Below, piece by piece: positions 30,868 to 47,018 of a stretch of DNA of 64,000 nt. This stretch comes from Paralcaligenes sp. KSB-10 (lineage in GTDB: Bacteria > Pseudomonadota > Gammaproteobacteria > Burkholderiales > Burkholderiaceae_B): assembly GCF_021266465.1 (NCBI RefSeq), contig NZ_CP089848.1, positions 682,001 to 746,000 of the forward strand, written 5' to 3'. Under the pieces are notes generated by a model. That model did not search any database and had not been told where the DNA came from. It saw only the letters and a program-made list of their open reading frames with translations. The translations under genes were made by a program, and so were the position numbers. The stretch's first letter is position 1. Each line of letters begins with the position of its first letter.

Positions 30868-31608
30868 TTATTTTTCGGTACCGATGAAACCGGGTACGCT
30901 CATCCATTTTTCAATGTAGCGCATGAGGATCACCACGATCGTATTGATGACTAAATACAATACCGTGGCAGCTGCAAACGACTCGAAGATCTGAAACGAA
31001 AACTCTTGCATGGACCGTGCGGCACCGGTCAATTCCACCAAGCCTATGGTGAACGCCACAGACGTATTCTTGATGAGATTAAGCGCCTCGGAAGTAAGCG
31101 GAGGCATGATGATCCGTGCCGTAATGGGCAGCAGGATATAGCGGTACACCTGGGGGCGCCGCAAACCAAGAGCGGTGCCGGCCATGCTTTGGCCTGTGGG
31201 CAAGGAATTGATACCGGCCCGGATCTGTTCGGCCACACGGGTCGAGGTAAACAGGCCCAGGCAGATCACTGCCGTCCAGTATGTGCTGAGCGTCGGATCG
31301 GCGGATTTGATGAAATCGCCCAGGCTCTTGGGCACAATCTCCGGAAAGACGAAGTACCACAAAAAAAGTTGTACCAGCAAGGGAATATTGCGAAAGACCT
31401 CGACATACCCCGCGCAGATCTTTTCCAACCACTTGATCCGGCTGGTGCGCAGCACGCCAACGGTCACGCCCACTACCAGGGCAATAATCCAGGCCACGGC
31501 GGAAACACCAAGGGTCCAATACACACCTTTGATCAAGGTGTACATATAGGTACCCGAACCATCGGGCGCCGGCGCCCAGAAAATTGACCAGTTCCAGTTG
31601 TAATTCAT
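30868..31608 (-). CDS. gltJ: Glutamate/aspartate ABC importer permease GltJ
   Basis: A 246-residue permease beginning MNYNWNWSIFWAPAPDGSGTYM, characteristic of GltJ, with FRNIPLLVQLFLWYFVFPE and the EAA loop EQIRAGINSLPTGQSMAGTALGL. It partners GltK. A strong hairpin (31646-31679) separates it from gltI upstream, probably lowering permease expression relative to the binding protein. Confidence 0.93.
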   Translation of the reverse strand: MNYNWNWSIFWAPAPDGSGTYMYTLIKGVYWTLGVSAVAWIIALVVGVTVGVLRTSRIKWLEKICAGYVEVFRNIPLLVQLFLWYFVFPEIVPKSLGDFIKSADPTLSTYWTAVICLGLFTSTRVAEQIRAGINSLPTGQSMAGTALGLRRPQVYRYILLPITARIIMPPLTSEALNLIKNTSVAFTIGLVELTGAARSMQEFSFQIFESFAAATVLYLVINTIVVILMRYIEKWMSVPGFIGTEK

Positions 31609-31645: not shown

Positions 31646-31679
31646 TACGGCACAGCCCCGCGTTTAGGGCTGTGCCGTA
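31646..31679 (-). promoter_or_regulatory. Intercistronic hairpin between gltI and gltJ
   Basis: A 13-bp perfect stem TACGGCACAGCCC with its complement and an 8-nt loop lies 11 nt after the gltI stop codon. There is no T-tract on the minus strand. Such hairpins after binding-protein genes commonly protect the upstream mRNA from 3' exonucleases. Confidence 0.65.
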
Positions 31680-31690
31680 CCAATCGATGC

Positions 31691-32590
31691 TTATTTGTAA
31701 ACAGCAGGGTCAGGTGAATCGGTAGGATGCGCAATGACCTTTTTCAGCTCAGGCGTCATGGGCCAGTTCATATTGATATTTTTGGGCGGTATGGCTTTTG
31801 TGAACCATTTGGCATAGAGGCGATCGAGAGTGCCGTCTTTCATCATGGTCTTGACCGCTGTGTCGACAGCAGCTTTAAAAGCTGGATCGCCCTTGGGCTG
31901 GATGATGCCGTAAGGCTCGATAGTGTATGCCGTCTTGCTGATCATCCAGTTGGCAGGTTTGTGCGAGGTAGCCACCAGGCCGGCCAGGAGGATGTCATCC
32001 ATGAAGAAGGCGGAGGCACGACCGCTTTCCACCGTGAGGAAGGCTTCAGGGTGATCTTTGGCAGTGATGATCTTCATGCCCAGCTTTTGCTCTGAATTGG
32101 CTTGAACCAGCCAGCGTAAATTGCTGGTGCCGGAAACGGAAACCACTGTTTTGCCTTTGAAATCGGCCAAATCCTTGAGCTTGGACGATTTAAGCGCCGC
32201 GAAACGCGTGGCCGTCACGAAGGTGGTGGGAGCGAAACTGACCTGCTGCTGCCGCTCGGCGTTATTGGTGGCGGAACCGCAGGAAAGGTCGACCGTGCCG
32301 TTGGCCACCAGTGGAATCCGGGTGGACGAAGTGACAGGCACTTCCTTGATTTTCAGGCTGGCCAGTTTGAGGTCTTTTTTGACAGCGGCGGCAATATTGC
32401 GGCATATGTCCATCGAATAGCCAATCGGCTTCTGATGATCGTCGAGATACGAAAATGGAATGGATGCGTCGCGATAGCCAAGCGTGATTTCACCGCTCGC
32501 TTTAATTTTATCGAGACGGCCTTCTGCGTGTGCGGCACCCATTCCGATAACGGTAACGGCGGCGGCCAAAACGAAGGGCATTAATTTCAT
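31691..32590 (-). CDS. gltI: Glutamate/aspartate periplasmic binding protein
   Basis: A 299-residue solute-binding protein with a Sec signal (MKLMPFVLAAAVTVIGMGAAHAE) and the SBP_bac_3 pattern: LDKIKASGEITLGYRDASIPFSYLDD, IGYSMDICRNIAAAVKK, VDLSCGSATNNAER, FKGKTVVSVSGTSNLR and FFMDDILLAGLV. It captures glutamate/aspartate in the periplasm. It is the first gene of the operon, with SD AAGGAGA just upstream and a long palindrome in the leader region. Confidence 0.94.
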   Translation of the reverse strand: MKLMPFVLAAAVTVIGMGAAHAEGRLDKIKASGEITLGYRDASIPFSYLDDHQKPIGYSMDICRNIAAAVKKDLKLASLKIKEVPVTSSTRIPLVANGTVDLSCGSATNNAERQQQVSFAPTTFVTATRFAALKSSKLKDLADFKGKTVVSVSGTSNLRWLVQANSEQKLGMKIITAKDHPEAFLTVESGRASAFFMDDILLAGLVATSHKPANWMISKTAYTIEPYGIIQPKGDPAFKAAVDTAVKTMMKDGTLDRLYAKWFTKAIPPKNINMNWPMTPELKKVIAHPTDSPDPAVYK

Positions 32591-42808: not shown

Positions 42809-44101
42809 ATGCTGGAAAAATACTTCAAGCTGGACGAGCACGACACATCGGTGCGCACCGAAATTCTGGCGGGCATTACCACCTTCCTGACCATGTCCTA
42901 CATTATTTTTGTAAACCCCGAAATCCTCTCGGGCACAGGCATGGACAAAAGCGCGGTTTTTGTGGCCACCTGCCTGGCGGCGTCGCTGGGCACGCTTATC
43001 ATGGCGTTCGTCGCGAACTGGCCCATTGGCATGGCGCCCGGCATGGGCCTGAACGCATTTTTCGCATTTACCGTAGTGGGAGCCATGGGTTACAGCTGGC
43101 AACAGGCTCTGGGCGCGGTGTTTATTTCAGGCGCAATATTTGTCATTCTGACCGTCACCGGCATACGGTCGTGGCTGGTCGACGGCATACCCAAATCCTT
43201 GCGGTCGGCCATAGCGGCCGGCATAGGGCTGTTCCTGGCCATTATTGCCTTGAGCAGCGCAGGCATAGTTATCGCCAATCCCGCGACCAAAGTCGGCCTG
43301 GGCAACCTGACCTCTGCACCCGCTCTGTTTGCGATTCTTGGATTTTTCATCATTGCCGCCCTGGATACGCTCAAGGTTCGCGGCGCCATCCTCATCGGCA
43401 TACTGATCATTACCATCCTGTCGATGCTGACCGGCAACAACCAGTTTCATGGGGTATTTTCGATGCCGCCAAGCCTGGCGCCCACCTTCTTCCAACTGGA
43501 TATCATGGGGGCCCTGCACACCGGCTTCGTTCATGTCATTTTGGTATTCGTGCTGGTTGAAGTATTTGATGCCACCGGCACCATGATAGGCGTGGCCAAG
43601 CGGGCCGGCCTGGTCCAGGAAGGCAAACCCAATCGCCTGGGCCGCGCCCTGTTCGCCGACAGTACCGCCATCGTGGCCGGGTCCTTCCTGGGCACCAGCA
43701 GCACCACAGCCTACATTGAAAGCGCCTCGGGCGTGCAGGCTGGCGGCCGCACCGGACTGACGGCACTCACCATAGGCATATTGTTTCTGCTTTCGCTGTT
43801 TCTTGCACCGCTTGCCGGTTCGGTACCCGCCTACGCCACAGCACCTGCCTTGCTTTACGTGGCCGGCCTGATGTTGCGCGAACTAACCGAAATCGAATGG
43901 GGCGATATCACCGAAGCCGCTCCGGCGGCCCTGACCGCCATTATCATGCCCTTCACCTACTCGATTGCCAACGGCCTGGCATTTGGTTTTATCAGCTATG
44001 TCGTCCTGAAAGCCGTTACCGGAAAATTCAAGGACATACACCCGGCTGCGCTGCTGGTCGCAGCCCTGTTTGTAATCAAATACGGATTTTTCCCCGGCTA
44101 G
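42809..44101 (+). CDS. NCS2-family purine permease (AzgA/GhxP-like)
   Basis: A 430-residue membrane protein. The start [40 protein letters not shown], the [17 protein letters not shown] segment, [22 protein letters not shown] and [20 protein letters not shown] are diagnostic of the AzgA-like guanine/hypoxanthine/adenine permeases. Import of a purine base by proton symport is the family function. Monocistronic by appearance. Confidence 0.95.
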
Positions 44102-44304
44102 GGCGCACACCGGCGCGGGCACGTCCTGCCGCTGCGGCCAAACGCCGTGGCGGCTGGCCAGGCAGGCTTTTCACCGAGCCGGCTGCCGCTATCTATCGGC
44201 ACTATTAGGATTTACCTATTCACCCCATTTAAGGGTAAACAATCACATAAAACACCGAGCAATGGCGCTACACTCTGCGCTTGTTTGCATTACTTTCTTG
44301 ATAG

Positions 44305-44326
44305 GCGGCTCATAAAGCCGCTTTTT
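44305..44326 (+). terminator. Intrinsic terminator immediately upstream of the thioredoxin gene
   Basis: GCGGCT, a 5-nt loop and AGCCGC followed by TTTTT, ending only 14 nt before the thioredoxin ATG at 44341. It could end the purine permease transcript, whose stop is 200 nt upstream. There is, however, no room for a separate thioredoxin promoter after it, so it may act as an attenuator for that gene. Confidence 0.75.
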
Positions 44327-44340
44327 AGTTTGGATTCCCT

Positions 44341-44715
44341 ATGAGTACCATCGATTTAAACAAAGACACCTTTCAAGCAGCAATCCGCGGCAGCCAGCCG
44401 CTCATCGTCGATTTCTGGGCTCCCTGGTGCGGTCCATGCCGCAATTTCGCACCGATTTTCGATGATGCCTCCGACAAGCACGACGACATCACCTTCGCCA
44501 AGGTGAACACCGAAGACCAGCAAGAACTGGCGGCCGGCATGAATATCCGCTCGATACCTACATTAATGGTATTTCGCGAGCAAGTACTGTTGTTCTCGCA
44601 GCCGGGCTCCCTGTCGGCGGGCCAGCTTGACGAACTGATTACCCAGATCAAAGCGATCGACATGGACAAGGTTCATGCCGATATCGCCGAACAGGAAAAA
44701 CAGGAAAGCGCCTAG
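44341..44715 (+). CDS. Thioredoxin-family protein
   Basis: A 124-residue thioredoxin with the active site WAPWCGPCRNF (Cys30 and Cys33), the cis-Pro segment IRSIPTLMVF and the general fold, plus a C-terminal helical extension rich in Glu, Lys and Gln (MDKVHADIAEQEKQESA). No signal peptide, so it is a cytoplasmic dithiol reductant. It is distinct from the classic TrxA by its tail and its FREQVLLFSQPGSL segment. A terminator-like hairpin sits just before its ribosome-binding site. Confidence 0.92.
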   Translation: MSTIDLNKDTFQAAIRGSQPLIVDFWAPWCGPCRNFAPIFDDASDKHDDITFAKVNTEDQQELAAGMNIRSIPTLMVFREQVLLFSQPGSLSAGQLDELITQIKAIDMDKVHADIAEQEKQESA

Positions 44716-44732
44716 CAACAAGCGCGGACAGA

Positions 44733-44800
44733 TGTAGAGGTGGACCTTGTGCCCACCCTCGCCCATCACGGCGGGCAGCCCTGGCAGGGCTGCCCCTACA
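44733..44800. repeat. TGTAG...CTACA palindromic mini-element
   Basis: A 68-bp unit that begins TGTAGAGG and ends CCCCTACA (near-perfect inverted ends). It contains a perfect internal hairpin, GGGCAGCCCT-GGC-AGGGCTGCCC (44773-44795). It fills most of the 80-bp gap between thioredoxin and yigZ, and its right end supplies the TAG stop of yigZ. The pattern resembles widespread short palindromic repeats with CCCCTACA ends. Confidence 0.65.
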
Positions 44801-45404
44801 AATCGACCTGCGGAGTTGGCGCAATTCGCCACTGCCCTTGCCCGCGAGTCAAATTGGCGAACAATTTGCCCAGCGATTGGGCAAGGTCTTGTGGAACGAC
44901 AAGGCGCCATTGCACGCCATTTGCATCGAATATTTCGTTTTCGATGCGAACATGGAAGGCTGGGAAACGCGACTGAATCAGTGCCATCTCCGCAAAAGTG
45001 CAACAGCAATCAATCAGAATTTCGGCAAGCAGTTCGACTCTGTCGGCCAGCCGCAAACACTGAGCGGCTGAGCCTCCGTACGCTCGCATCAGGCCGCCCG
45101 GACCCAGCTTGATGCCCCCGAACCAGCGCGCCACCAGAACCGCCACCCGATCGCACTGCTGCCCTTCGATAGCTTGCAGGATCGGCCGGCCGGCCGTGCC
45201 ACCCGGCTCCCCATCATCGTTGAATCGATATTCGGTGCCGATCCGGTACGCCCAGCAATTGTGGCTTGCCGACGCCACGCGATGCCTTGCGATAAAACTC
45301 AAAGCCTCCGCAGGCGACTGAACCCCCTCGGCAAACACAATGAAACGGCTTTTCCTGATGTCTTCCTGGTACGTTCCCGGTGCGGCAAGCGTATAAAGCA
45401 TCAT
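44796..45404 (-). CDS. yigZ: YigZ/IMPACT-family protein
   Basis: A 202-residue protein: KSRFIVFAEGVQSPAEALSFIARHRVASASHNCWAYRIG, FNDDGEPGGTAGRPILQAIEGQ and VLVARWFGGIKLGPGGLMRAYGGSA are the UPF0029/IMPACT signatures. A DUF1949-like C-terminal domain follows. Eukaryotic IMPACT regulates Gcn2; the bacterial role is unclear. It lies 12 bp after the ABC-F gene, probably in one transcript. Its stop codon is inside the end of a short palindromic element, so its last residues may have been reset by insertion. Confidence 0.92.
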   Translation of the reverse strand: MMLYTLAAPGTYQEDIRKSRFIVFAEGVQSPAEALSFIARHRVASASHNCWAYRIGTEYRFNDDGEPGGTAGRPILQAIEGQQCDRVAVLVARWFGGIKLGPGGLMRAYGGSAAQCLRLADRVELLAEILIDCCCTFAEMALIQSRFPAFHVRIENEIFDANGVQWRLVVPQDLAQSLGKLFANLTRGQGQWRIAPTPQVDL

Positions 45405-45416
45405 GAAAAAAGCGGA

Positions 45417-47018
45417 TCAGGCTTCAATCCCGCGCGAACTCAGGTAATCGTCGTAGCCGCCGAGATAATCAACGATTTCCCCGCTCGGCATGATCTCGAT
45501 GACGCGAGTGGCGACTCCCGATACGAATTCGCGGTCATGCGACACGAACACCAGCGTGCCGGCATATTTCTCGAGCGCAAACTGCAACGACTCGATCGAT
45601 TCCATATCCAGGTGATTGGTGGGCTCGTCCATGAGCAGCACATTGTGGCGACCCAGCATCAATCGTCCGAAACTCATGCGGTTTTTTTCGCCGCCCGACA
45701 ATACCTTGACCGCCTTGGGAATGTCGTCGGCTGAAAACAGCAAACGCCCCAGCACCGAGCGGATCGACTGATCGTCATCGCCCGTTTGCCGATAATCGAT
45801 AAGCCAGTCGAACAGATTGCTGTCGGACTGGAACTGCTCCGAAACGTCCTGAGCCATATAGCCGATATCGGCGTTCTCGGACCATTTGACGGTTCCGCCA
45901 TCCGGAGCCAGATCGCCCGCCAGCATACGCAGCAGCGTGGTCTTGCCCGCCCCATTGGCCCCAATGATCGCGATTTTCTGGCCGGCTTCAATCATGGTCG
46001 AAAACGACCGTATCACCGGCTGATCAAACGATTTGCGTATGTGCTCGAGCGTTACAGCCAGACGGTGCATGACCTTGTTCTGCTCGAACCGGATATACGG
46101 GTTCTGGCGCGAAGAAGGCTTGACCTCAATGGCGCCCGCCTTGATTCTGTCGATCTGCTTCAGGCGCGAAGTAGCCTGGCGAGCCTTGGATTTATTGGCG
46201 GAAAAGCGCCGCACGAAATCCTGCAACTCGGCCACTCGCTCTTTGGCCTTGGCATTAGCCATGGTCACGCGCTCGCGCGCCTGCGTGGAGGCCAGCATGT
46301 AGTCGTCGTAGTTGCCTGGATAGATACGCAGTTCGCGGTAATCCAGATCGGCCATGTGCGTGCAAACCTGATTCAGGAAATGCCGGTCATGGCTGATGAT
46401 GATCATGGTGCTCTGATAGCCGTTGAGCACATCCTCGAGCCAGCGGATGGTGTTGATATCGAGGTTGTTGGTGGGCTCATCCAGCAGGAGCACGTCGGGG
46501 TTCGAAAACAGGGCCTGGGCCAGCAGCACACGCAGCTTCCAGCCCGGTGCGATTTCGCGCATGGGCAGGTTATGCTGATCGACCGCAATTTCCAGCCCCA
46601 GCAGCAATTCGCCGGCCCGCGCCTCGGCGGTGTAGCCGTCGTATTCGGCAAACTTGGCCTCGAGGTTGGCCGCGTGCATGTAATCTTCTTCGGTCGCGTC
46701 CGGATTCGCGTAAATGGCATCGCGTTCAGTCATGGCCTGCCACATTTCCTCGTGGCCCATCATGACGACATCCAGAACCCGGACGTCCTCGAACGCAAAC
46801 TGATCCTGGCGCAACTTGCCCAGGCGCACGCCCGGCTCCAGCGACACATTGCCGCTACTGGATTCGAGATCGCCCCCAATGATTTTCATGAAGGTAGACT
46901 TGCCCGAGCCATTGGCGCCGATCAGGCCGTACCGGTTGCCTTCGCCGAATTTGACGCTGACATTTTCAAAGAGAGGTTTGGGCCCGAACTGAATAGTAAG
47001 ATTTGCGGTGGAGATCAC
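45417..47018 (-). CDS. ybiT: ABC-F family ATPase, YbiT-like
   Basis: A 533-residue soluble protein with two ABC domains (Walker [10 protein letters not shown] and GANGAGKTT; Walker [13 protein letters not shown] and [12 protein letters not shown]) joined by a charged linker, and no membrane part. The first signature reads [15 protein letters not shown] instead of LSGG, a feature of YbiT; the second is [18 protein letters not shown] proteins act on the ribosome in translation or antibiotic protection. A specific role here is not shown. Confidence 0.93.

Follow-up and report, generated by a model that had tools for sequence, protein, structure and literature searches.

Classical attenuators and riboswitches require a leader peptide, a ligand domain, or a competing antiterminator, and the factor-modulated terminators include cases of NusA/NusG-dependent termination and of antitermination by cold-shock proteins. 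A literature search of limited terms and coverage returned no description of a thioredoxin leader terminator. The nearest described case found is the 5′-UTR terminator of Escherichia coli ispU (uppS), which is reported to be an intrinsic terminator, not a Rho-dependent one, with a 6-bp stem-loop followed by eight U residues; in the same study (PMC7815308), the short 5′-UTR RNAs are 60 and 81 nt long, and IspZ was measured.

The window analyzed in this study is a stretch of 64,000 nucleotides from Paralcaligenes sp. KSB-10, and all coordinates refer to it unless a locus is named. The hairpin and T tract that precede its thioredoxin gene are a real, conserved, and locus-specific terminator-like element. 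Placed between a likely promoter and the start codon, this terminator probably throttles the thioredoxin gene in many relatives.

The Hairpin Upstream of the Thioredoxin Gene

The features of the locus are collected in Table 1. The arms of the hairpin, AGGCGGCT (44303–44310) and AGCCGCTT (44316–44323), flank the loop at 44311–44315, and one of the stem pairs is G·U. The preliminary description of this DNA had reported a hairpin with a T run ending at 44326 ahead of an ATG at 44341, and these positions were confirmed from the sequence; the intervening spacer of 14 nt (44327–44340) holds the GGA. Downstream of the thioredoxin gene, the opposite strand encodes a YigZ/IMPACT-family protein. In the window and in its relatives, the element has the makeup of an intrinsic terminator, with a GC-rich stem, a short loop, and a U tract that abuts the stem. 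The folding energy of the window hairpin is −9.1 kcal/mol, in a range of −8.9 to −20.2 kcal/mol over 64 leaders. A terminator score based on a literature formula was above zero in 51 of the 64 leaders and was 12.2 for the window versus a median of 24, and the terminator of the window itself is modest. A search of positions 43900–44800 with Rfam 15 gave no riboswitch or leader family at the gathering score; the sole match, RF00385, scored 16.7 bits versus a threshold of 35 and lies on the other strand, within the thioredoxin frame.

Table 1. Features of the thioredoxin locus in the window
Feature	Position	Strand	Basis and remarks
Upstream permease gene (PF00860)	42809..44101	+	Pfam; 239 nt from stop to thioredoxin ATG
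−10-like box TACACT	44269..44274	+	Pattern match; flanks partly match AAANNCGNTACACTGG of relatives
Predicted transcription start	44282	+	Assumed 7 nt after the hexamer
Terminator hairpin	44303..44323	+	8 pairs, loop CATAA; read from sequence, conserved in relatives
T (U) tract	44322..44326	+	Last two stem bases fall inside the tract; read from sequence
Weak Shine-Dalgarno-like GGA	44332..44334	+	Read from sequence
Thioredoxin, 124 aa, WCGPC motif	44341..44715	+	PF00085, 4.7e-25; TIGR01068, 98.4 bits (cut-off 96.8)

Terminators Elsewhere in the Genome

A loose terminator scan of 8 kb, which picks up this hairpin, found 15 sites as compared with 9.3 (sd 2.6) in shuffled sequence, so that a single terminator-like match means little alone. 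A strict definition was applied to both strands of 464 kb, made up of the window and a 400-kb sample of the same genome, where it gave 36 terminators. Seven of these precede, by 8–40 nt, a start codon on the same strand that opens an ORF of 100 aa or more; three of the seven are within other ORFs, and the four that remain, including the thioredoxin one, compare with a total of 424 ORFs of this length, indicating that the layout is rare in this genome but not unique. The pattern GCGGC-N3..12-GCCGCTTTTT occurs four times in the 4.45-Mb genome. Among the raw ORF ends of the sample, spurious frames included, only 4 of 514 had a terminator score above zero, all four above the 12.2 of the window; intrinsic terminators are sparse in this genome, and the thioredoxin one is not among the strongest. 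Chance is ruled out because the element is conserved in relatives.

Several other sites were observed in these scans. Of the three other strict pre-start terminators, one (L214) is located 29 nt after a stop codon. Another, on the minus strand at L205:13093, precedes the start of a long frame by 14 nt and has no same-strand stop within 120 nt upstream, making it a possible second leader terminator. The third, on the minus strand of the window (45412–45433), overlaps the end of a frame for an ABC-F-type ATPase, the stop of which is at 45417, and leaves 8 nt to the start of yigZ at 45404. A long terminator-like hairpin, also on the minus strand of the window (31647–31676), separates a frame that ends at 31691 from the next same-strand start at 31608; it may be an intercistronic hairpin within a transporter operon.

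Conservation of the Element

At E values up to 1e-40, an ortholog of the thioredoxin was found in 179 of the 268 same-family genomes and in 32 of the 43 genera. The scored set consists of 130 same-family leaders from 31 genera; many of the orthologs outside it belong to one genus (g4). Excluded from the set were L020, which is cut by a contig end, L227, which has too short a flank although its hairpin is visible, L028, a member of the family removed by a numeric filter that has neither box nor stem, and the duplicates L031, L244, L245, and L192. A leader was scored for a box, defined as TA[ACT]ACT at 50–88 nt upstream of the ATG, and for a stem with a positive tail, defined as at least five T in eight positions.

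The box is present in 75 of the 130 leaders as compared with 2.7% in shuffles. Of the leaders with a box, 58 of 75 also have a stem and a positive tail before the ATG (0.35% in shuffles of these 75), and these 58 are distributed over 16 of the 31 sampled genera, a total that rests on a hand-made genus map. Among the 55 leaders without a box, a stem with T was found in two, a stem only in 12, and neither in 41; both of the two belong to genus g10 and adjoin the end of an upstream gene. Shuffles over all rows gave a stem with T in 0.24% and any stem in 7.7%. The 130 rows include six repeats of identical leaders (124 without them), and when identical leaders are counted once, the stem with T is present in 54 of 70 leaders with a box versus 2 of 54 without. 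In the preliminary description, conservation of the hairpin in close relatives was proposed as a check, and the hairpin is present in all five loci (5/5) of the nearest genus, g29. The pattern TACACT-N16..46-GCGGC-N3..14-GCCGCTTTT matched once per genome in 9 of 41 genomes, by coordinates at the thioredoxin gene in all nine, and its reversed control gave one match.

The remaining leaders with a box comprise two groups. (i) In six of the 75 (L011, L114, L134, L149, L165, and L229), the stem is followed by fewer T. (ii) In 11 of the 75, including L004, L115, L141, and L143, no stem was detected by the scan, which overlooks hairpins with long loops or weak ends; one or two of these 11 have a stem by eye (L006 and L222). 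Three leaders of genus g30 (L015, L144, and L147) retain the stem and have neither T tract nor box. In these exceptions, the terminator may be decaying, or the stem may serve a different purpose. Loci of the Bordetella and Achromobacter types have no box and no hairpin plus T.

Outside the 130, 61 further rows were scored, and a stem with T was found by scan only in L036, L038, L250, L251, and L260, the last of which has three bases between the stem and the T. The first four, with L037 and L253, in which the hairpins were assigned by eye, are from Thiobacillaceae. The stem in this group (GGCGCGA...) is unrelated in sequence, but the layout is the same: the stem begins ∼7 nt after TGATAGGGT or TGATACGGT, it is followed by TTTTTA or TTTTTT, and the ATG is some 30 to 56 nt away. 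On a tree built from 174 protein rows, the element falls into two clades: an unstarred one of Alcaligenaceae with support 89, where 60 of 77 rows have it, and a starred one of Thiobacillaceae, where all six rows do. The four hairpins found by eye (L006, L222, L253, and L037) were scored as present in the tree labels only, where at least four T were also accepted. The tree needs 11 trait changes versus 53 in shuffles, and the starred branches require just three; it is a quick tree built from few columns with many open forks.

A Promoter-like Sequence Upstream of the Hairpin

The box hexamer was chosen by pattern and so provides no independent evidence, but its flanks do. In 57 non-redundant leaders aligned on the box, A is found at positions −8 to −6 in 39, 45, and 49 of the 57, C at −3 in 35, G at −2 in 34, and GG after the box in 38 and 35; no −35-like element was found in this alignment. 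The corresponding stretch of the window is AATGGCGCTACACTCT, a partial match to the conserved flanks. The region at 44251–44284, taken together with the 57 relatives, shows a AAANNCGNTACACTGG box conserved at the thioredoxin gene in the absence of a −35. In the sample, TACACT is over-represented outside ORFs, with 15 of 44 matches in the 13% of sequence that is noncoding by this measure, as is expected of a −10 element.

The frequency of the box in the family leaders relative to shuffles favors a likely promoter upstream of the hairpin, and transcripts from such a promoter would have to cross the terminator. The other possibility raised in the preliminary description, a nearly leaderless start, is disfavored because just 14 nt separate the T run from the ATG and they contain nothing promoter-like.

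Two wider assignments of the box were rejected. As a general promoter class, AAANNCGNTACACTRG gave six matches (in 6 of 41 genomes) versus 13 in 10 genomes for the reversed control, and so shows no overall enrichment; five of the six are immediately upstream of thioredoxin by coordinates, and there is no match in the genome of the window itself. TACACT resembles the −10 element of sigma-S promoters, but RpoS (TIGR02394) was over the cut-off in none of 37 same-family genomes; the 11 of 61 searched genomes in which it was over the cut-off are all in other families.

Leader Geometry and Stem Structure

With the start assumed to lie 7 nt after the box, the predicted distance from start to stem in the 64 leaders is 2–25 nt (mean 14.9). 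The end of the stem is 15–24 nt from the ATG (mean 19.4, sd 2.0), and the predicted RNAs ending with the T run are 25–53 nt long (mean 41). In predicted folds of the leader with 36 nt of coding sequence, the mean stem probability is 0.96, with the exceptions of L162 (0.01) and L184 (0.30). A competing antiterminator fold was considered and rejected, since the leader ahead of the stem pairs poorly with the 5′ arm in most of the 64 leaders: the duplex between them has a mean energy of −2.1 kcal/mol versus −14.0 kcal/mol for the hairpin, and the strongest such duplexes are those of L016 (−7.5 kcal/mol), L149 (−6.4 kcal/mol), and L118 (−6.2 kcal/mol). With 2–25 nt predicted ahead of the stem, neither a leader peptide nor a ligand domain nor a classical antiterminator could be accommodated. 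The attenuation suggested in the preliminary description is unlikely, on both grounds, to work by alternative folding, and nothing in this analysis points to the redox control that had been proposed with it.

In 52 aligned leaders, 95.9% of the stem cells pair as compared with 72.4% in the best slid register (+3); the former percentage is partly by construction because the aligned rows were selected by the hairpin scan. Double-sided changes were found in 32 stem cells, whereas shuffles gave 8.9 and none of 500 reached 32. The number of pairs with such changes was 5 versus 3.2 (7 of 500 as high), and that of further pair types was 10 versus 8.5 (56 of 500 as high). Most of the co-variation falls in the outer A-U/G-C pairs, and the loops drift. 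The CGGC/GCCG core is nearly invariant in these sequences, which may reflect nothing more than the two transversions needed for each G-C swap. RNAalifold recovers the same eight pairs unaided. Tail positions 2–5 are T in 50, 52, 48, and 43 of 53 distinct hairpins; the tail is specifically T, not A/T, and starts directly at the end of the stem.

The placement of the stem close to the predicted 5′ end and 15–24 nt before the ATG, together with its retention without a T tract in some lineages, is what would be expected if the element acted in the finished mRNA, with the 5′-proximal stem blocking decay, a U-rich spacer aiding ribosome loading by protein S1, and termination being incidental. A T tail that abuts the stem is needed for termination, however, and not for ribosome loading, and the Thiobacillaceae show no tight spacing to the ATG, so we regard a role of this kind as unlikely, although it deserves some weight.

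Genes Upstream of the Element

In 62 of the 75 family loci with a box, a permease gene is upstream on the same strand, and in six of these 62 its stop is <100 nt from the thioredoxin ATG, where the permease may share the terminator. The element could accordingly be the terminator of the upstream gene, with the thioredoxin promoter happening to precede it and the resulting loss of transcripts being tolerated. Against this, the element persists when the upstream gene is a different one. It is found downstream of EAL/GGDEF genes in L112, L113, L168, and L224, and behind a MerR-family gene (L125:862–1380) that replaces the permease just upstream of thioredoxin and that may be read as SoxR-like from its cysteine cluster. 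In L032 and L145, which share one leader and count as one species and one clear case, the upstream gene is tsaD on the opposite strand (divergent), the interval from tsaD to thioredoxin shows no gene on the thioredoxin strand, and the element is retained; the hairpin there cannot be only a gene end. Furthermore, a mere gene end does not need the tight spacing to the ATG. Ownership of the terminator by the upstream gene is consequently improbable. A tRNA or tmRNA gene as its owner was also considered and rejected, none being present in 11 loci.

Discussion

The hairpin, the T tract, their conservation and co-variation, the conserved −10-like box upstream, and the persistence of the element beside a divergent gene were all computed directly. 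The interpretation that we favor, and consider reasonably probable, is that the element is a promoter-proximal intrinsic terminator in the thioredoxin 5′ UTR that attenuates its own transcript. We infer the use of the box as a start site, the termination in cells, and the modulator of read-through. RNA polymerase would start from the TACACT promoter at ∼44282, the GC hairpin would form after some 20 nt, and the U tract would then be transcribed. A fraction of the complexes would stop near 44326, releasing an RNA of about 45 nt, and the remaining complexes would continue through the Shine-Dalgarno sequence into the thioredoxin frame, so that the terminator would cap thioredoxin output. The fraction reading through would most likely be set by the general conditions of elongation (polymerase speed, NusA/NusG, and RNA-melting proteins of the cold-shock type), and not by a riboswitch, a leader peptide, or a competing fold.

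A more specific proposal, which we put forward as speculative and rather doubtful, is that the locus-specific box (AAANNCGNTACACTGG) and a terminator within ∼25 nt of the start form a single-gene control module that responds to a protein signal, possibly tied to redox state, which opens the terminator without an alternative RNA fold, and that has arisen at least twice, in Alcaligenaceae and in Thiobacillaceae. It is very unlikely that the promoter and terminator constitute a gene for a trans-acting small RNA, with the thioredoxin mRNA as a by-product of read-through; the two would yield an RNA of 25–53 nt, which can be compared with IspZ (PMC7815308), but neither the loop nor the bases ahead of the stem show conservation from genus to genus, leaving no shared seed, and in every locus examined the element adjoins the thioredoxin gene. 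The nearly invariant core might suggest that a dimeric regulator binds the inverted repeat as a DNA operator immediately past the start site. This is scarcely credible, since in the counted rows the arms are separated by anything from 3 to 10 nt, which a dimeric operator could hardly tolerate, and the strand-specific T tract would have no role.

Should termination occur as predicted, the element would be an attenuator of a thiol-redox gene that is widely conserved and yet so near its promoter that no textbook antitermination fold could form. Such an element would offer a small system for asking how elongation factors alone set read-through, and it would illustrate that a terminator need not mark the end of a gene.

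The thioredoxin leader resembles those of classical attenuators and riboswitches in having a predicted terminator between a putative promoter and the coding sequence, but differs from them in that only 2–25 nt are predicted ahead of the stem and no good competing pairing is found in most leaders. As in the factor-modulated terminators, read-through into thioredoxin could be set without a competing fold. As compared with ispU/IspZ (PMC7815308), the gene and the bacteria are different, the predicted RNAs are shorter (25–53 nt), and there is no conserved seed; the two systems have in common an intrinsic terminator within the 5′ UTR and a short 5′-UTR RNA, predicted here from sequence.
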